Part shown: piece by piece, positions 53,790 through 64,000 of the stretch
How the letters are laid out: every line of letters starts with the position of its first letter
Numbering within the stretch: position 1 is the first letter of the stretch
Source: Bacteroidaceae bacterium
GTDB taxonomy: Bacteria > Bacteroidota > Bacteroidia > Bacteroidales > Bacteroidaceae
Length of the DNA stretch: 64,000 bases
Assembly (NCBI GenBank): GCA_017642425.1
Contig: JAGCPB010000064.1
Location: forward strand, 1 to 64,000
Reading direction: 5' to 3'
Made by a program: the position numbers and the translations under genes
The notes under the pieces: model-generated
Told to the model about the DNA's origin: nothing
Database searches by the model: none
The model's input: the letters and a program-made list of their open reading frames with translations, nothing else

Positions 53790-54986
53790 TTAAATCAAGC
53801 CAAGGATAACTTTGTAGGAGTGAACCTCATCGGGATCACCCAGCTCCTTGCCCGGGGTGTCGGACAGTTTTACGCAGCGGTAGACGTGCTGGCGGGGGTT
53901 GACCTGGAAGGTCTTGAGTTTCATTACGATGTTTAACGGATCTACAGTGCCTACATCGTTAGTGAGGTTTGTGCCGATGCCGAACGATACCTTTATCCTA
54001 CCCTCAAAGTACTTCTGGATGGCCAGGGCACGGTCAAAGTCAAGGGCGTCACTGAACACTATTGACTTGGTCATGGGGTCTATGTGGTATGACTCGTATT
54101 TGGCTATGATCTTGTCGCCGAACTCAAACGGATCGCCGCTGTCGTGACGTACGCCGTCATATAGTTTGGCCATATCGAGCGAGAAATTGCGAAGGAACAC
54201 GCGCGTTGTAAAGCAGTCAGGCAGCATCGTACCCATGTTTCCGCCGAATATCTGAGCCCAGTTGCGCATAACGTAATAGTTAGCCTCCTTGGGTCCCATG
54301 AATGCGGCAGTTGCCATCATAAGCTCGTGAGCCATAGTGCCGATAGGCTTCAGGTCCGGACGGATTGACTGGTATTTCATTGCGAAATATACGGTCGATG
54401 AGCCGATGAAATACTTGGCGTGGCGTGTCAGATACTCGGTTACATGATCCTCAACCTCACGTGAGTAGCGGCGGCGCATACCAAAGTTTGCAAACTTGAG
54501 CTTGTTCTCGTTTGATATTGCAACCTTCTTCTCCAGATGGCTGTCTATGTATGCCCAGTCCGGCTCGGTTTTCTCATATATCTTGTAATATACCTCCGAT
54601 ACCGTACTCAGAATGGGGATTTCATACAGTGTGACCTTGTAGATAAGGTCTTTTGCCTCAATGTGCAGGTGGCCCTCCTCATCAAGCGATATGTCGATTA
54701 TATCGGCATTGAACCTGAAGCCTTTGAGCCACTCAAAATAGCACTGAGGTATGAAATAGATATTGGAGAGGCACCATTTGAACTCCTCATCGGTCAGGGC
54801 CAGTGTCTCCAGTTTCTTGAACTCCTTACGTAAGAGATTCACAAACTCCGGCGTGAACTTCATGCCGTTGCGGTCATTGAAACTGAATGTGCCTATACCA
54901 TCGGGAGTAGTCCGCTGGTAATAGTATGACATGGAGAATTTATAGAGGTCATTCTCCAACACACTCTTTACTATAGTGCTCTCCAT
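53790..54986 (-). CDS. pncB: Nicotinate phosphoribosyltransferase
   Basis: PncB makes nicotinate mononucleotide from nicotinate and PRPP in NAD salvage. The 398-residue protein has YKFSMSYYYQR near the N-terminus, the active-site histidine region GVRHDSGDPFEFG, and FGIGTNLTNDVG for phosphate binding. It lies seven bases downstream of a nicotinamidase gene; together they convert nicotinamide to NaMN. Confidence 0.95.
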   Translation of the reverse strand: MESTIVKSVLENDLYKFSMSYYYQRTTPDGIGTFSFNDRNGMKFTPEFVNLLRKEFKKLETLALTDEEFKWCLSNIYFIPQCYFEWLKGFRFNADIIDISLDEEGHLHIEAKDLIYKVTLYEIPILSTVSEVYYKIYEKTEPDWAYIDSHLEKKVAISNENKLKFANFGMRRRYSREVEDHVTEYLTRHAKYFIGSSTVYFAMKYQSIRPDLKPIGTMAHELMMATAAFMGPKEANYYVMRNWAQIFGGNMGTMLPDCFTTRVFLRNFSLDMAKLYDGVRHDSGDPFEFGDKIIAKYESYHIDPMTKSIVFSDALDFDRALAIQKYFEGRIKVSFGIGTNLTNDVGTVDPLNIVMKLKTFQVNPRQHVYRCVKLSDTPGKELGDPDEVHSYKVILGLI

Positions 54987-54993
54987 AAAATCC

Positions 54994-55632
54994 TTATTTA
55001 TAAATCTTTATCTTATTCTCGTTCATGTAGGTAACCAGAGGCTCGTTGCTCTCGATGGATGCTACGCCCTCCAGGTAGACTGAGAGTTCAAAACCTACCT
55101 CCTTGCTAAGACGAACCAGGTTCTTGAGTGTCTCCAGGACGCAGTACTCGGCAGCTATACCGCATACAACAACCTTGTCACCCTTTACAAACAGGTCCTG
55201 GTCATTACCCTTGGTGTTCTCAAACTGACCGTACTCCTCCTTATCCTGAGCCTGGCCCTTGGGCAGGAAACGTACGTTATTGATATCCAGATTGTCCAGA
55301 ATACCGTCAGGCAGAGCTGCGCCAACAGTGTAGCGTACGCAGTGCTGAGGCCAGATACCGCCGTTTGCCTTGAATGAGCAGTGGTTCCATGGATGCCAGT
55401 CAAGGGTAAAATATACCTTGTCAAACTTGGTAAGGACGCTCTTTACAGGCTCCACAACGCGTGTGCCGTCGGTAGCAGGCAGGTTTCCGTCAATGAAATC
55501 CTTCTGAAGGTCAACCACTACCATAATGTTTGCGGGTTCACGGTTTGTCATAACTGTCTGTTTTTTGTTTCCTGTGCAAGCCACCACAGCCAAGAATGCG
55601 ACAGCAGCGGCAAAAATCCTGATTGCTTTCAT
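54994..55632 (-). CDS. pncA: Exported nicotinamidase (isochorismatase family, probable lipoprotein)
   Basis: About 212 residues from MKAIRIF: a lipoprotein-type signal (VVAC, Cys19), then the isochorismatase fold with Asp41 (DLQKDF), metal ligands Asp78, His80 and His84 (DWHPWNH), Lys125 and nucleophile Cys164 (AAEYCVLE). These are nicotinamidase signatures. Nicotinamidases are usually cytosolic, so the signal peptide is notable. A more distal ATG at 55659 would lie at the promoter. It is co-transcribed with pncB, which strongly supports nicotinamide as substrate. Confidence 0.88.
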   Translation of the reverse strand: MKAIRIFAAAVAFLAVVACTGNKKQTVMTNREPANIMVVVDLQKDFIDGNLPATDGTRVVEPVKSVLTKFDKVYFTLDWHPWNHCSFKANGGIWPQHCVRYTVGAALPDGILDNLDINNVRFLPKGQAQDKEEYGQFENTKGNDQDLFVKGDKVVVCGIAAEYCVLETLKNLVRLSKEVGFELSVYLEGVASIESNEPLVTYMNENKIKIYK

Positions 55633-55676
55633 TACAACAATTGTTATTTGAATGTGCAAATTTAGTGATTTCTTTC

Positions 55677-58934: not shown

Positions 58935-59849
58935 ATGACACTTACAGGAATCCTGTTTCTCATCATTGCGACCATCCTGACCGCAATGTTCTCTATCGTA
59001 TTCAAGATATTTCACCGTAAGGATATCGACGCCAACCAGGCAATATTCTTCAATTACCTGACCGCATTCGTACTTGGAGTGCTGTTCTCACTGAATGGTG
59101 AAGCGGTTGTAAACCCATTGAAAGCCGATTGGCTGGTTGACGTAATAATACTGGGATTCATATTCATGGCCGGAATGGTCATGCTGTCGGCCTCCACCCG
59201 CCGCGTAGGTGTGGCCATATCGACCGTATGCAGCCGCGCATCGATGGTAATCCCTATCATAGTATCATATCTGCTGATTGAGGGCAGTGCAAAACCCAAA
59301 TGGCTGCTTATCTGCCTTGTACTGGTGGCTATGACCCTTACCATCTGGACCGATAAGCCCCAGGGCGGACACAAATACACTCTGCTGGATATTCTGGCAC
59401 CTGTCACAGTGTTCCTTATGTTCGGCGCCAGCAACGCATACCTTAAGGTTCTGCAGCACCGTGTGACCGTAAACGACACCGCAGCCGGACTATCGGAGCA
59501 GGTAATCAACAGCGAGATATCACTTGTAACCGCATCCGTGTTCTTTGTGGCAATGCTTATGTGCATATACTCGTTCTTCAAGAAGGGAGAGGACGGCAAG
59601 CGCTCCCCTCTGCTTCTTAAGAACGTATTAGGAGGTGTAGTTCTTGGTTTTGTGAACTATTTCTGCACCTACACCCTGATGCTCTCAATGAAGACCATAG
59701 ACTCATCGTTCCTATTCCCGGTCCACAACATCGGAATCGTGGCAATAGGAGCAATCGTAGGCTGGCTGGCCTTCAATGAAAAACTAAGACCGCACCAAGT
59801 ACTCGGTATCGTACTTGCTGCGGTCTCAATAGCCCTACTCTGTATTTAA
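58935..59849 (+). CDS. EamA/DMT-superfamily transporter
   Basis: A 304-residue integral membrane protein with about ten hydrophobic segments in two halves, matching EamA drug/metabolite transporters. The substrate could be amino acids, nucleotides or other metabolites. It is 12 bases after the M3 peptidase, so it may move peptide-derived products, though this is only suggestive. Its last four bases overlap the converging TonB-receptor gene. Confidence 0.88.
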   Translation: MTLTGILFLIIATILTAMFSIVFKIFHRKDIDANQAIFFNYLTAFVLGVLFSLNGEAVVNPLKADWLVDVIILGFIFMAGMVMLSASTRRVGVAISTVCSRASMVIPIIVSYLLIEGSAKPKWLLICLVLVAMTLTIWTDKPQGGHKYTLLDILAPVTVFLMFGASNAYLKVLQHRVTVNDTAAGLSEQVINSEISLVTASVFFVAMLMCIYSFFKKGEDGKRSPLLLKNVLGGVVLGFVNYFCTYTLMLSMKTIDSSFLFPVHNIGIVAIGAIVGWLAFNEKLRPHQVLGIVLAAVSIALLCI

Positions 59850-62800
59850 TCGAATATCAGTTTTACGCCCAGCTGGAGGTACCAGCAGTTGGAGTTGGAT
59901 TTATCCATATCGAAGGTCTTGGAAACAAGGCCTTCTTTGTTTGTTGCCATTGTGAATTGCGGATAACCGTCGGCATCAGTGCCCTTGTACTCAAGCAGTT
60001 TGGCGTTGTTGCAGGCTGCGGGAGTCTGCATGACACCCCATTTGCTGTTAATCATATTGCCTACATTCATGATATCCAGTGACAGCTGCAGAGTCTCGTT
60101 GTTACGTTTGGAGCCTCTCAGGGCGCCTACATTGAAGTTTTGTGCCAGATGCAAGTCAAAACGGTTCAGCCACGGCATACGTGCAGCGTTTGCATCGGCA
60201 TACTCACCCTTGTGACGGCTAAGGTACTTGTCCTGGTTTACAAAGTCCCAAAATGCCTGCTGCTGCTCTGCGGCGGTGATTGTTCCGTTGTCCACAAACC
60301 TGACCTCTTCCTTGGCGGCAGGTATGTACAACAGGTCATTTGAGATACCGTCACCATTCATATCATTTGTATGGGTGTAACTGTAGGTACCTGCAGTGTA
60401 ACCTGTGTAGAACACTCCAACCTCAGTACTCATGAACTTTTTGCTTGCATAACCAATGCGGTATGTAGCCATAGCCGACAGTTTATCCGGTATGACATAG
60501 GCCGATGGGCGCAGAACCACCTCGTTGGGACTGTTTACATTGGGGGTATTGCCCCACGCGGAGTTCAGAGCCGAACCTTTCATATCCTGAACGGACATTG
60601 AGGCTTGATGTATGTACGAAATTTCCGTCTTGAGTCCGTATACAGGCTCAGCCTTGAGAGTACCGCCCAGAGACCAGCTGTAACCCTTATCGGTATTGCT
60701 TATAACCATAGCGCCACCCGACTTTGATACTGTTGAATAAACCGGAGCTACGGTGTTGTAATTCACTCTGTTATCGGCTCCGCTGAAACGTCCTGCGGCA
60801 CCGTCATGAACCTGATTGTAGTTCTCAATATAGACGGCGTTGATATCCTTGTTATAGATACCCTCAACCGATATTGCCAGCGGGAATGCCAGGTCATCGG
60901 GCTCATAGTCTATGGCCAGGGATGTCTTGAATACCTGCGGGAGCTTGAAATCACTCCTGATGCCGGTTATTGATGCGCCCTTTAACACCGGATTGGGGTT
61001 GGCTGTCATAGGCAGACCCTGCTGAACAAGATAGTTCCTCAAATCGGCCTCGGTATAGAGGAAATTGCCCTGCAGACCCGTCAGGAAGGCATCACCTGCC
61101 GTGGGGAACATCACGGTGTTCTGCAGCATACCGCTGCTGTTGGGTATTGTGGCAAAGAAAACCAGAGGGATACGGCCCGTAAACAGACCTGCACCACCGT
61201 GAACCGTCAGCGTGCGGGCATCGTCCACATCCCAATTGAATCCTATGCGCGGCGATAACTGCACGTTTGCCTTGGGCCACTTGCCGTTGTCAATAACGGG
61301 AGACTTATAGCCTGCAGGAGCCTGTCCTGCTGCATAGAAGTGATTTGTCCAGTCAAGAGCCTTGAATGACTCATTGGTCTGGAGGGGCTCATAATACTGC
61401 ATATGGTCTGCCCTGAGTCCGTATGTAACAGTAAACTTGTCTGTTATATGTGACTCAGCCTGCAGGAAAGCGGCGGTCTGACCAAATGATGTACGTGATG
61501 CAGGATCATCAATCCCGTCATAGGTGTAAGTCATTCCGAATGCCGCAGGAGCAGCCTGATTGATAAAATCCTCGAGTGAGTTGTATCGGTAGTAACCCGT
61601 TCCGTACATGCGGTAGTTGGTGGCACCCTTCTGGTACTGATAGCTCAGACCGGCCGTAATGGTGCTGTGAGCCAGTGTCCAGCGTATATGGTCACTGAAA
61701 CTGTATGTACGCACGTAGTTTCCGGTACCGTTTGAGAATGCCTCATAACCTGCGCTCATAAACGCGTCACCGTCCTTGCGGATATCGATATGCGGGAACC
61801 ACTCCGAATCGGATCCACGCAGATTGCTTACGTCCGATACGCTGGCCGACAGCTTATTGCTCATCTTGCCGCTCAGACGGCTGTTGAGTTCGGCCACGGC
61901 TGACCATGCGTTATCATTGATACTGAAGCAGTTATTAAGGAATGCATATGAATTCTTTGATATACGTTCCGATGCGGCCTTGGCGCCAACTGTACTCTTG
62001 GCATTGGGAGTGCTCCACTGCTTGTTTCCGGTCCAGTTGTAACGCAGCATCAGGTTGTGGTTGTTGTTGATGTTCCAGTCAATACGTGCCAGCACCTTGG
62101 TGTTTGTCTGATCACCTTTGGTAAGGTCATAACCGCCTGCATCATAACCATATGTCTTAAGTGCAGTTGCAAACTGTTCCATATCGGCTGTGGTAACACG
62201 ACTTATCTTGGCGGCATCATCACCAATTCCATCCTGGGACAGCTTATACTCGGTAATCGGGCCTGGAGTGGTAACATACTCAGCATTAACAAAATAGAAC
62301 AGCTTGTCCTTAAGTATCGGACCACCCAGAGTGAATCCAACCGTAGTATGGCTGTTGCTTACCCTATCGCCCAGATCCACGCCGTCAATACGGTTACCGC
62401 GCATCTTCTCATTATGGTAATAGGTGTATGCAGTACCTTTCAGCGTGTTTGTACCCGACTTGGTTATTACATTGATGCCACCGCCGGTAAAGTTGCTCTG
62501 ACGTACATCGTAAGGCGCAATTGCCACCTGCATCTCATCGACCGCATCAATAGAAATAGGTGTTCCGCCGCCGGGCAGATCGGCCGAAAGACCAAAACTG
62601 TTGTTCAGAACGGCACCGTCGATTGTGAGTGTGGTTCCGCGTCCGTCACGACCAGCCATAGTGTTCTCAATGCCGCTGTAAGGCGATAAACGAGTGTAAT
62701 CCAGCATGCTACGGTTTACTGACGGCAGCATGGACATGCTCTCCCTGTCAATATGGTAGGTCTGACCGGTACGGGTCTCGTTGAAATGTGTGCTCTCACC

Positions 62801-63211
62801 GCGTATGGTCACGGTCGGGATATTCTTGGTCTCCTCCTTAAGGACGACATTGAAATTGTAATCCTTACCCATAGAGAGCACCACGTTGTCATAAGCCACA
62901 TCCTGATAACCCAGGAACGATACCGTCACCAGATACTTGCCGGGCTTGAGTCCCGACAGGGAAAAGATGCCGTACTTATTGGCAACCGCGCCATAGAATG
63001 CGCCGGTCTCATTGTTGGTAACTACCACTGCAGCAGCCTGGAGAGGCTCACCGTCGGAATCTTTCACGGATCCGCTAATGGATGCGGTAGTGTTCTGTGC
63101 CGATGCACCAACGCTGGCAAACAACAACACGAACAGGCATGCAAACCTGATGAGTCTGAATGACAAACTGTCGGCAATAGCCGAAAAACTGAACTCGGAT
63201 GTCTTGTTCAT
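59846..63211 (-). CDS. Oar-like TonB-dependent receptor under FMN riboswitch control (putative flavin transporter)
   Basis: About 1121 residues from the preferred ATG 63211. A long signal peptide (core FACLFVLLFASVGASA-Q) is followed by a carboxypeptidase-regulatory-like domain (about 45-125), a plug domain (about 130-270, TLTIDGAVLNNSFGL, GGGINVITKSGTNTLKG) and a large Oar-type beta-barrel ending in GVKLIFD. TonB-dependent receptors import scarce ligands across the outer membrane. The FMN riboswitch directly upstream predicts a flavin. In-frame ATGs at 63274 and 63289 overlap or touch the aptamer end, so the start is not certain. Confidence 0.9.
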   Translation of the reverse strand: MNKTSEFSFSAIADSLSFRLIRFACLFVLLFASVGASAQNTTASISGSVKDSDGEPLQAAAVVVTNNETGAFYGAVANKYGIFSLSGLKPGKYLVTVSFLGYQDVAYDNVVLSMGKDYNFNVVLKEETKNIPTVTIRGESTHFNETRTGQTYHIDRESMSMLPSVNRSMLDYTRLSPYSGIENTMAGRDGRGTTLTIDGAVLNNSFGLSADLPGGGTPISIDAVDEMQVAIAPYDVRQSNFTGGGINVITKSGTNTLKGTAYTYYHNEKMRGNRIDGVDLGDRVSNSHTTVGFTLGGPILKDKLFYFVNAEYVTTPGPITEYKLSQDGIGDDAAKISRVTTADMEQFATALKTYGYDAGGYDLTKGDQTNTKVLARIDWNINNNHNLMLRYNWTGNKQWSTPNAKSTVGAKAASERISKNSYAFLNNCFSINDNAWSAVAELNSRLSGKMSNKLSASVSDVSNLRGSDSEWFPHIDIRKDGDAFMSAGYEAFSNGTGNYVRTYSFSDHIRWTLAHSTITAGLSYQYQKGATNYRMYGTGYYRYNSLEDFINQAAPAAFGMTYTYDGIDDPASRTSFGQTAAFLQAESHITDKFTVTYGLRADHMQYYEPLQTNESFKALDWTNHFYAAGQAPAGYKSPVIDNGKWPKANVQLSPRIGFNWDVDDARTLTVHGGAGLFTGRIPLVFFATIPNSSGMLQNTVMFPTAGDAFLTGLQGNFLYTEADLRNYLVQQGLPMTANPNPVLKGASITGIRSDFKLPQVFKTSLAIDYEPDDLAFPLAISVEGIYNKDINAVYIENYNQVHDGAAGRFSGADNRVNYNTVAPVYSTVSKSGGAMVISNTDKGYSWSLGGTLKAEPVYGLKTEISYIHQASMSVQDMKGSALNSAWGNTPNVNSPNEVVLRPSAYVIPDKLSAMATYRIGYASKKFMSTEVGVFYTGYTAGTYSYTHTNDMNGDGISNDLLYIPAAKEEVRFVDNGTITAAEQQQAFWDFVNQDKYLSRHKGEYADANAARMPWLNRFDLHLAQNFNVGALRGSKRNNETLQLSLDIMNVGNMINSKWGVMQTPAACNNAKLLEYKGTDADGYPQFTMATNKEGLVSKTFDMDKSNSNCWYLQLGVKLIFD

Positions 63212-63229
63212 GCCCTTGGCACAAACAAG
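63203..63229 (-). promoter_or_regulatory. Hairpin enclosing a TonB-receptor start codon (possible expression platform)
   Basis: On the minus strand CTTGTTTGTGCC pairs along all 12 positions (two G-U) with GGCATGAACAAG across an AAG loop. The ATG at 63211 lies inside the stem. It is about 50 bases beyond the aptamer and has no T run, so translational control is the natural reading. A further stem CAGGCG/CGCCTG lies at 63235-63252. Confidence 0.5.
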
Positions 63230-63280
63230 TTTTGCAGGCGCGATAACGCCTGACAGGACTGTTTTGATACTCATAAATTC

Positions 63281-63382
63281 TTCTTCCATCCAGACTATAC
63301 TGTCGGTACCGTAGTTGCAACGGTTCGGCCTTTCGGCTCGCGGACTTTACCGCCGGTCGGGGAATTTCGCCCCACCCTGAAG
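63281..63382 (-). promoter_or_regulatory. FMN riboswitch (RFN element)
   Basis: On the minus strand the RFN consensus is clear: AGGGTGGGGCGAAATTCCCC, then ACCGGCGGTAAAGTCCGCGAGC, a GCC-GAAA-GGC hairpin, CCGTTGCAACTACGG, and the 3' block CCGACAGTATAGTCTGGATGG. The ends CTTC and GAAG close P1. It binds FMN and normally represses riboflavin synthesis or transport genes. The gene directly downstream is the TonB-dependent receptor. Confidence 0.95.
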
Positions 63383-63393
63383 TTTTACGCCTG

Positions 63394-63424
63394 CAAATTT
63401 CCGCTTTCTACCCCATTCCACCAA
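63394..63424 (-). promoter_or_regulatory. Promoter of the FMN-riboswitch transcript
   Basis: On the minus strand TTG (63422-63424), a 20-base spacer and GAAATTTG (63394-63401), one base from consensus. It would start transcription a few bases upstream of the aptamer. Confidence 0.5.
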
Positions 63425-63750: not shown

Positions 63751-63785
63751 AAACCGCTCCTCAATAACGAGAAGCGGCTTTTTCT
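63751..63785 (-). terminator. Terminator after aspS (works in both directions)
   Basis: CCGCT-CTC / GAG-AGCGG with one mismatch and a six-base loop, a T-rich tail on both strands. It abuts the aspS stop. Confidence 0.75.
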
Positions 63786-64000
63786 TATGCTTTCAAGTCA
63801 ACCTTAAGTTGAAGCTCATCAAGCTGTGACTGGTCAAGAGGACCCGGAGCATCCAGCATGACATCGCGGCCTGAGTTGTTCTTGGGGAACGCTATGCAGT
63901 CACGGATGCTGTCCAGCTTGGCAAAGATGCTGACAAAGCGGTCCAGACCGAATGCCAGACCACCGTGAGGAGGAGCACCGAACTTGAATGCGTTCATCAG
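63785..64000 (-). CDS. aspS: Aspartyl-tRNA synthetase (C-terminal part only)
   Basis: The last 71 codons of AspRS, running off the window edge. The class II motif 3 region [23 protein letters not shown] is clear, as is the [24 protein letters not shown] end of bacterial AspRS. The enzyme charges tRNA-Asp. The start and most of the protein lie outside the window. Confidence 0.93.

Follow-up and report, generated by a model that had tools for sequence, protein, structure and literature searches.

As is proposed for the receptor analyzed here, OMthi of Bacteroides thetaiotaomicron is described as a TonB-dependent outer-membrane B-vitamin transporter in Bacteroidota, in that case for thiamine (PMC6977713). 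BtuB-like outer-membrane receptors under the control of TPP riboswitches have also been described (PMC2211319). OMthi differs in the vitamin and in the class of riboswitch, and its gene lies close to that of pnuT, the inner-membrane partner (PMC6977713), whereas no partner is established for the present receptor. The BtuB vitamin B12 receptors of Bacteroides, with 13% identity in an alignment, differ in both vitamin and switch (PMC10404256). For RibU and RibXY, whose role in flavin import is either known or predicted, an FMN element ahead of the gene is described, and some of the hosts lack riboflavin synthesis; these importers are inner-membrane proteins of the ECF or ABC type, whereas the protein studied here is an outer-membrane receptor (PMC12934955, PMC3766115). 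Riboswitches acting by direct translation attenuation, as described, carry the ribosome-binding site inside the aptamer core and are commonest for TPP, preQ1, and SAM-I; unlike those cases, the present locus has an FMN aptamer and conserved in-frame hairpins (PMC2258182). A 2013 regulon survey gave no FMN regulons for the Bacteroidaceae it examined (PMC3766115), and a preprint from 2026 that covers 1,291 genomes of Bacteroidales presents RfnT, RibZ, ImpX, and YeeO as candidate transporters, with neither "TonB" nor "outer membrane" occurring in its main text (PMC12934955). Our literature search found no report of an FMN-controlled outer-membrane flavin receptor and no described transporter for the passage of flavins across the outer membrane in Gram-negative bacteria that depend on vitamin B2.

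The window, i.e., the whole stretch of DNA that was analyzed (64,000 nucleotides), is from a Bacteroidaceae genome. With good confidence, we read the features listed below as including a compact FMN switch that acts on translation and controls a flavin importer of the outer membrane, the receptors being exchangeable, in a riboflavin-auxotrophic genus of Bacteroidales. An FMN aptamer lies on the start of a receptor gene in gut bacteria that seemingly cannot synthesize vitamin B2, so this receptor is very probably the outer-membrane route for the vitamin.

58935..59849, plus strand: EamA-family permease (PF00892), converging on the receptor gene with a 4-base overlap
59846..63274, minus strand: Oar-like TonB-dependent receptor, 1142 amino acids from the likely start
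63162..63289, minus strand: structured leader, the first approximately 40 codons of the reading frame, ahead of the receptor's own signal peptide
63172..63183, minus strand: HP3, a weaker predicted hairpin
63203..63229, minus strand: HP2, an in-frame hairpin of 12 bp with a 3-nt loop
63235..63252, minus strand: HP1, an in-frame hairpin of 7 bp with a 4-nt loop
63272..63274, minus strand: probable ATG start codon, sharing the last aptamer base
63274..63388, minus strand: FMN riboswitch aptamer (RFN element), 115 nt
63388..63402, minus strand: promoter-like stretch GGAAATTTGCAGGCG directly upstream of the aptamer
63785..64000, minus strand: 3' end of a gene which we take from its sequence to be aspS (aspartate-tRNA ligase), which anchors the site on its upstream side

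The RFN aptamer read on the minus strand in the preliminary description was confirmed by a covariance-model scan, in which RF00050 matched as a full-length aptamer (model positions 1 to 138 of 138) with 100.4 bits (E = 4.1e-22; gathering cut-off, 66.2 bits). The element at 63388-63274 is the one FMN element found in the 2.6-Mb draft genome. The stretch GGAAATTTGCAGGCG, with TTTG at 63397-63394, was judged promoter-like by the Bacteroidales -7 promoter consensus, and in 24 of 26 loci of the genus (all but G494 and G558) TTTGC occurs at most 50 nt upstream of the aptamer. Since the promoter-like stretch abuts the aptamer, the transcript may start at the aptamer or just upstream of it. In all 17 genus loci compared, the window included, the offset between the end of the aptamer and the first in-frame ATG is -3 to 0 nt, and the purine stretch GGAAGAAG, a candidate ribosome-binding site, is immediately 5' of the ATG on the 3' side of P1. 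Direct translation attenuation places the start region within the aptamer or abutting it, and the ATG at 63274 is on the last aptamer base. In the proposed mechanism, the mRNA would begin with the aptamer, whose closing helix P1 would hold the ribosome-binding purines and end on the start codon. Ample FMN would leave the start masked by the folded aptamer and little receptor would be made, and scarcity of FMN would free the start for translation, which corresponds to a putative OFF switch. Ligand-free plain folding of six members left the start region paired in some and unpaired in others.

The first gene downstream of the aptamer encodes the Oar-like TonB-dependent receptor of the preliminary description, an assignment that draws on Pfam, an AlphaFold model, and fold matches. 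The protein has an N-terminal carboxypeptidase-regulatory domain and an OMP_b-brl_4 barrel, which together presumably represent the Oar architecture. Pfam gives PF00593 (27.8 bits; cut-off, 27) and PF25183, and does not list the plug PF07715, though the plug is present in T2, the other receptor family found behind the FMN element. The model takes the plug-and-barrel fold of known TonB-dependent transporters, and transport would presumably be energized by TonB. The window receptor is outside the T2 family, falling into a separate BLAST cluster (best match among 33 T2 proteins, 52 bits over 331 residues). A search for a named relative by sequence gave none: neither the window receptor nor T2 has a PDB match at E <= 0.01, and NCBIfam has no match for the window receptor.

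In the fold search, which informs on fold alone, most neighbors of the receptor transport siderophores, heme, or B12; PqqU with PQQ ranks 21, and no flavin transporter is among the matches listed (the best 50 of either fold-search list), an absence that is uninformative. Such neighbors would fit a receptor whose substrate is not a flavin but an iron or heme source or a peptide, with FMN control merely tying uptake to flavin status. The NCBIfam matches of T2, all weak and far below the cut-off, include heme and B12 receptors and point the same way, and cross-talk between iron and riboflavin is a subject of review (PMC6041382). We consider this explanation improbable, because an iron role would not predict the near-complete link between FMN-controlled receptors and ribH loss described below, and those classified FMN elements of the order sample that do not precede a receptor are on riboflavin synthesis genes (one representative of each checked). 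We infer that the ligand is a flavin.

In the genus, ribH (lumazine synthase, PF00885) was found in 0 of 37 genomes by a search that was positive in 14 of 14 control genomes, while the flavokinase is retained in 36 of the 37. Vitamin synthesis is thus lost and cofactor synthesis kept, as in an auxotroph relying on an importer, and the genus members appear to be riboflavin auxotrophs, judged on ribH as the sole biosynthesis gene counted genome-wide. Under the flavin-importer reading, an inner-membrane carrier would take the flavin onward, and the retained flavokinase would then make FMN and FAD. The named close relatives of the genus are mostly rumen-type metagenome assemblies.

The FMN element precedes an Oar-type receptor (FMN-Oar) in 21 of the 37 genomes and a T2 receptor (FMN-T2) in 5, one T2 gene (G607) being split in two pieces and left as found; clear orthologs of both receptors occur together in none. 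A clear relative of the window receptor, of full or partial length, is present in 31 genomes. No FMN element was found in 11 of the 37, including G341, G361, and G379 (each at least 96% complete), and in five members the receptor ortholog is at the corresponding site but has neither aptamer nor leader. These five, and the relatives outside the genus that lack the element, would be expected if the Oar-like gene came behind the switch by a recombination accident and kept another substrate, flavin entering through porins or another receptor. That course of events seems unlikely to us, as the switch is on the Oar-like receptor in 21 genomes whose receptors have diverged widely (54-95% identical with the window protein) and these genomes have no T2 ortholog.

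The link to riboflavin auxotrophy extends across the order. Our order sample contains 295 genomes, 239 with ribH and 56 without, the latter obtained by subtracting the listed positives. Counted regardless of kinship, as are the Fisher tests below, ribH is missing from 26 of the 27 genomes in which a receptor is FMN-controlled, and these 27 span 17 families and include G287, whose element scores 28.5 bits, under the cut-off. G216, the one exception, also belongs to the genomes with FMN-ribD; its first ORF is a receptor-like piece of 190 amino acids, which is followed by a receptor of 858. The remaining 38 FMN-element genomes all have ribH, which is present with FMN-ribD (27/27), FMN-ribB (11/11), and in one unclassified genome. 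The names ribD and ribB were given to BLAST clusters, for each of which one representative was checked with Pfam. The element of G265 extends past the contig end and was left unclassified. The contrast also appears within single genera: in g78, G180 has FMN-ribD and ribH, whereas G076 has an FMN-receptor and no ribH; in g185, G345 and G397 have ribH and the FMN element before ribBA (identity confirmed in G397), whereas G295 and G323 have FMN-receptors and no ribH. In a sample of the window's own family, 21 of 21 FMN-receptor genomes lack ribH. The flavin importer, which the preliminary description had proposed from the riboswitch alone, is therefore supported by the missing ribH and retained flavokinase of the genus and by this association, which makes outer-membrane flavin uptake directly testable and provides a marker for vitamin B2 auxotrophy and cross-feeding in gut Bacteroidota. 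Since no FMN element was found in 30 of the 56 ribH-less genomes, routes other than an FMN-controlled receptor exist.

The preliminary description had also proposed a distinct class of transporter and a survey of receptors carrying the element, and here its view needs refining: the common FMN-controlled receptor is T2, which accounts for the majority in the order sample, and the Oar type was seen directly behind the element only in this genus and in G148, as a 168-residue fragment at a contig end. At 65 Oar-like loci of lower identity (28-42%), some of which are cut short upstream, no FMN element was found, and 16 of the 22 of these checked for ribH are in ribH-containing genomes; Oar-like receptors as such are therefore not flavin receptors. 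Oar-like genes in second position behind FMN-T2 (G156, G103, G231, G269, and G020) were considered as close kin of the window receptor, and the tree separates them from it. The Oar tree was drawn from 43 of 79 loci, with L110, L116, L120, and L122 omitted for stop codons in translation. In a second tree step the partial locus L180 was omitted, and the genusNoFMN group of that step includes one misassigned row, the FMN-carrying G597. Set A2 comprises 34 of the 79 loci and the window.

FMN-Oar and FMN-T2 occupy one chromosomal site in the genus. Between the window and one T2 locus, DNA homology spans the aptamer and the first codons, is lost across the receptor, and returns after the receptor stop codon; the aspS tail was matched in 22 of 37 genus loci, with two genomes counted twice. 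The two receptor families thus replace one another in place behind the same switch, which also backs the flavin-importer reading. Receptors swapped behind a retained riboswitch and in-frame hairpins represent an unusual case of regulation and transporter evolving separately.

The leader is strongly conserved at synonymous positions: where the amino acid is the same, the codon is identical too in 949 of 1089 comparisons for the leader and in 16236 of 29523 for the gene body (10 Oar members). The pN/pS of the leader is approximately 0.6-0.9. Among 59 chosen sources, the leader model R2 matched the Oar loci, G569, and four of five T2 genomes, and gave no match in G410 (T2), G494 (Oar), and the loci without FMN element L207-L216; model R1 was drawn from 30 of the FMN elements. 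The geometry of HP1 is kept in 25 of 26 genus FMN-element loci (8 bp in G597; absent in G494) despite 14 different sequences, and every HP1 cell is paired in alignments A3 (18 of 21 FMN-Oar loci, without G569, G494, and G604) and A4 (7 Oar and all 5 T2). HP2, the 3' arm of which contains an in-frame ATG (63211), has changes on both sides in 6 of 12 pairs, and its cells are paired to 96.1% in 17 distinct Oar rows and to 79.2% in the mixed Oar/T2 alignment. HP3, from the RNAalifold consensus of A3, has one such pair.

Recent spread by recombination of the aptamer-plus-leader stretch, rather than selection on RNA structure, might account for the synonymous conservation. Receptor genes swap between lineages at the site, the pN/pS is also compatible with a recently homogenized, weakly constrained leader, the T2 genes lack the codon signal (37/71 versus 1520/2913), and the count of further pair types in A3 is not above that of shuffles (18 versus 19.2). 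Nevertheless, pairing in HP1 and HP2 survives changes on both sides in 24 cells, a number that none of 500 shuffles reached (mean, 7.1) and that compares with 0-7 cells in slid controls, for a structure that came from the window's own fold and was favored by that choice. Together with the constancy of HP1, this argues against mere spread, which we regard as possible but the weaker explanation. The in-frame hairpins are probably part of expression control. The idea that the arms of HP1 pair with their own aptamer in an anti-aptamer role was rejected, as matched combinations fared no better than permuted ones (eight tests, p = 0.10-0.96; best-motivated test, p = 0.76). It is conceivable, as a speculative extension, that aptamer, start codon, and three-hairpin 40-codon leader form one control cartridge common to two sequence-unrelated flavin receptors swapped at one site in a B2-auxotrophic genus, that the hairpins within the reading frame act as a second regulatory RNA of a kind not yet described, and that the swap is driven by the available flavin form or by escape from receptor-using phages or bacteriocins.

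The EamA permease was considered as the inner-membrane partner, i.e., a RibN-type flavin carrier, and was rejected, being unassociated with ribH loss in the order sample (matches in 24 of 56 ribH-less and 90 of 239 ribH-containing genomes; Fisher p = 0.54). Its single NCBIfam match is EbrB, below the cut-off. Among the FMN-receptor genomes, 15 of 27 have an EamA match (p = 0.06).

The preliminary description of an FMN riboswitch in front of a TonB-dependent receptor was right as an observation, and the reading of this receptor as a predicted flavin importer is well supported at the sequence level; however, FMN-controlled receptors in the order sample generally belong to a second, sequence-distinct family (T2) and not to the Oar-like type found in the window. 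The features of the site are as follows.

63274..63388, minus strand, FMN aptamer (RF00050)
59846..63274, minus strand, Oar-like TonB-dependent receptor
63235..63252, minus strand, hairpin HP1 inside the receptor reading frame
63203..63229, minus strand, hairpin HP2 inside the receptor reading frame

In the order sample (295 genomes), in which the first open reading frame downstream of each FMN element was clustered, 66 elements were observed in 65 genomes, and one of them scores under the cut-off. They precede ribD-type genes (27), ribB-type genes (11), receptors (27, including that of the window), and a contig end (1); one representative apiece of ribD, ribB, ribBA, and the receptor was confirmed by Pfam. 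The lumazine synthase gene ribH is missing in 26 of the 27 FMN-receptor genomes, which are spread over 17 families, and is found in all 38 remaining FMN-element genomes (Fisher p = 1.2e-20 for FMN receptor versus ribH absence in all 295 genomes, kinship ignored). G216, the sole FMN-receptor genome with ribH, additionally carries an FMN-ribD operon. In the genus g78, G180 has FMN-ribD and ribH, whereas G076 has an FMN receptor and lacks ribH. In the own-family sample, 23 of 301 genomes contain an FMN element, which controls a receptor in 21, all without ribH; in the genus g185, G345 and G397 carry the element before ribBA and possess ribH, and G295 and G323 are of the FMN-receptor type without ribH. 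Counting against a simple rule, no FMN element is seen in 30 of the 56 ribH-less genomes of this sample, which implies that flavin can be taken up by another route or through a receptor free of FMN control.

A profile search for ribH (PF00885) was negative in all 37 genomes of the window's genus and positive in 14/14 control genomes, a Bacteroides among them, while flavokinase (PF01687) is retained in 36/37. From these two counts, cells of the genus appear to lack the known route of riboflavin synthesis, yet still to be capable of converting riboflavin to FMN; ribH is the one riboflavin synthesis gene behind this call, and the genomes are often incomplete (8/37 reach 90% completeness with contamination of 5% or less). 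Among the papers listed by full-text searches, which mostly leave out subscription papers, none reports an FMN-controlled TonB-dependent receptor as judged from titles and abstract openings (the scope also takes in PMC13209645 and PMC12702654). In their accessible parts, PMC2211319 associates RFN elements with rib genes, PMC4418817 mentions neither TonB nor the outer membrane, PMC3766115 gives no FMN regulons for the Bacteroidaceae that it examined, PMC6593275 lists B2 transporters with no outer-membrane protein among them, PMC12934955 names RfnT, RibZ, ImpX, and YeeO as candidate Bacteroidales transporters, and PMC6977713 describes OMthi.

BLAST clustering of the FMN-controlled receptors examined separated 33 T2 proteins (752 to 904 amino acids, one cut at 586), found across the order, from an Oar-like group made up of receptors from the window's genus and a single G148 fragment. 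Within the genus, the FMN element is present in 26/37 genomes, 21 times before the Oar type and 5 times before T2; clear orthologs of both occur together in none of the 37, and G508 has a clear ortholog of neither. T2 is also the FMN-controlled receptor in the family members G295 and G323 (g185) and G325 and G299 (g189), and we therefore infer the direction of exchange: the Oar type is probably a local replacement that took T2's place behind the switch, with the beginning of T2 retained in front of its own N terminus. Several families have a second large receptor after the FMN-T2 receptor, which is T2-like in G203, G287, G076, and G202. In the order sample, an Oar-like gene is second behind FMN-T2 in G156, G103, G231, G269, and G020 (L034, L066, L172, L176, and L178 include such second genes); these were rejected as close kin of the window receptor, as the tree places them on separate branches.

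The site of the receptor, which lies between aspS and a converging EamA permease gene, is common in the genus, with matches to the aspS tail at 22 and to EamA at 21 of the 37 loci examined, among which two genomes are counted twice and several contigs stop early; the EamA match is absent at L194 and L218. Between the window and the T2 locus of G316, an 86% match begins 57 nt ahead of the aptamer and ends approximately 20 nt past the start codon, no DNA match is observed across the receptor, and the match resumes at most 20 nt past the receptor stop codon (3,047 nt at 86%). In the aspS tree, G316 and G558, in which T2 and aspS are both present, fall within the Oar genomes, a placement that requires at least two changes; no other T2 genome with aspS is in the tree. 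In G599, G600, G595, G598, and G361, the Oar ortholog is located behind aspS with no aptamer match and starts with an ordinary-looking signal peptide.

The spacing from the aspS tail to the receptor varies widely among genus members. In the window, an inverted repeat (63528-63582/63701-63755; 55-nt arms, 75% complementary) lies between aspS and the aptamer, and the 17-base core of this repeat has no further occurrence in the window at up to 2 mismatches. Peptidase M3, isochorismatase, or NAPRT genes are often located at the site in genus loci. Positions 53790-55659 encode two proteins, a nicotinate phosphoribosyltransferase and a member of the isochorismatase fold with weak similarity to nicotinamidase; these genes recur close to the genus receptor site, which would place NAD salvage next to the predicted flavin uptake.

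The purines ahead of the start codon belong to P1, the closing helix of the aptamer, so FMN binding would be expected to shut the start codon, a predicted direct translation attenuation. In the accessible part of their paper, Barrick and Breaker describe this mechanism as commonest for TPP, preQ1, and SAM-I, and its rarity in other classes as unexplained (PMC2258182). In ligand-free folds of six members, the start region is paired in some and unpaired in others, a pattern compatible with switching or with its absence. Outside the genus, the first in-frame ATG of FMN-receptor loci is 69 to 244 nt past the aptamer in 22/28; the exceptions are G224 (-1 nt), G126 (1), G102 (7), G299 (22), G295 (32), and G216 (1383).

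Approximately 40 codons stand ahead of the window receptor's own signal peptide. At same-amino-acid positions in comparisons of 10 Oar members, the codon is identical in 949/1089 cases in this leader and 16236/29523 in the receptor body; the signal was not seen in four T2 genes (37/71 versus 1520/2913 in the body). Relative to the window, pN/pS is 0.6 to 0.9 for the leader in 6/8 comparisons (undefined in 2/8, with zero synonymous changes) and 0.09 to 0.24 for the body in 7/8; in G546, the most distant of the eight, it is 0.82 in both. Both hairpins, tested with a structure derived from the fold of the window itself, show covariation. Across 17 distinct Oar rows, pairing is kept in 97.5% of cells, and 24 cells are altered on both sides versus a shuffled mean of 7.1 (a value reached in 0/500 shuffles; slid controls, 0 to 7), although further pair types are no more numerous than in shuffles (18 versus 19.2). 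In the combined Oar and T2 alignment, HP1 is paired in every cell and HP2 in 79%. The geometry of HP1 (7-bp stem, 8 in G597; 4-nt loop) is kept in 25/26 loci, with a mean energy of -9.3 versus -2.6 kcal/mol for shuffled codons (single-locus p = 0.005 to 0.47). R2, a leader model made from Oar rows and run on 59 chosen sources, matched the T2 leaders of G316, G607, G534, and G558 (E = 1e-7 to 0.01), missed that of G410, and gave no convincing match elsewhere among these sources. Pairing of HP1 with the aptamer was not supported. The 3' arm of HP2 contains an in-frame ATG at 63211 (minus strand), GTG in some relatives, which stands ahead of the real signal peptide and could be a second start site masked by this hairpin.
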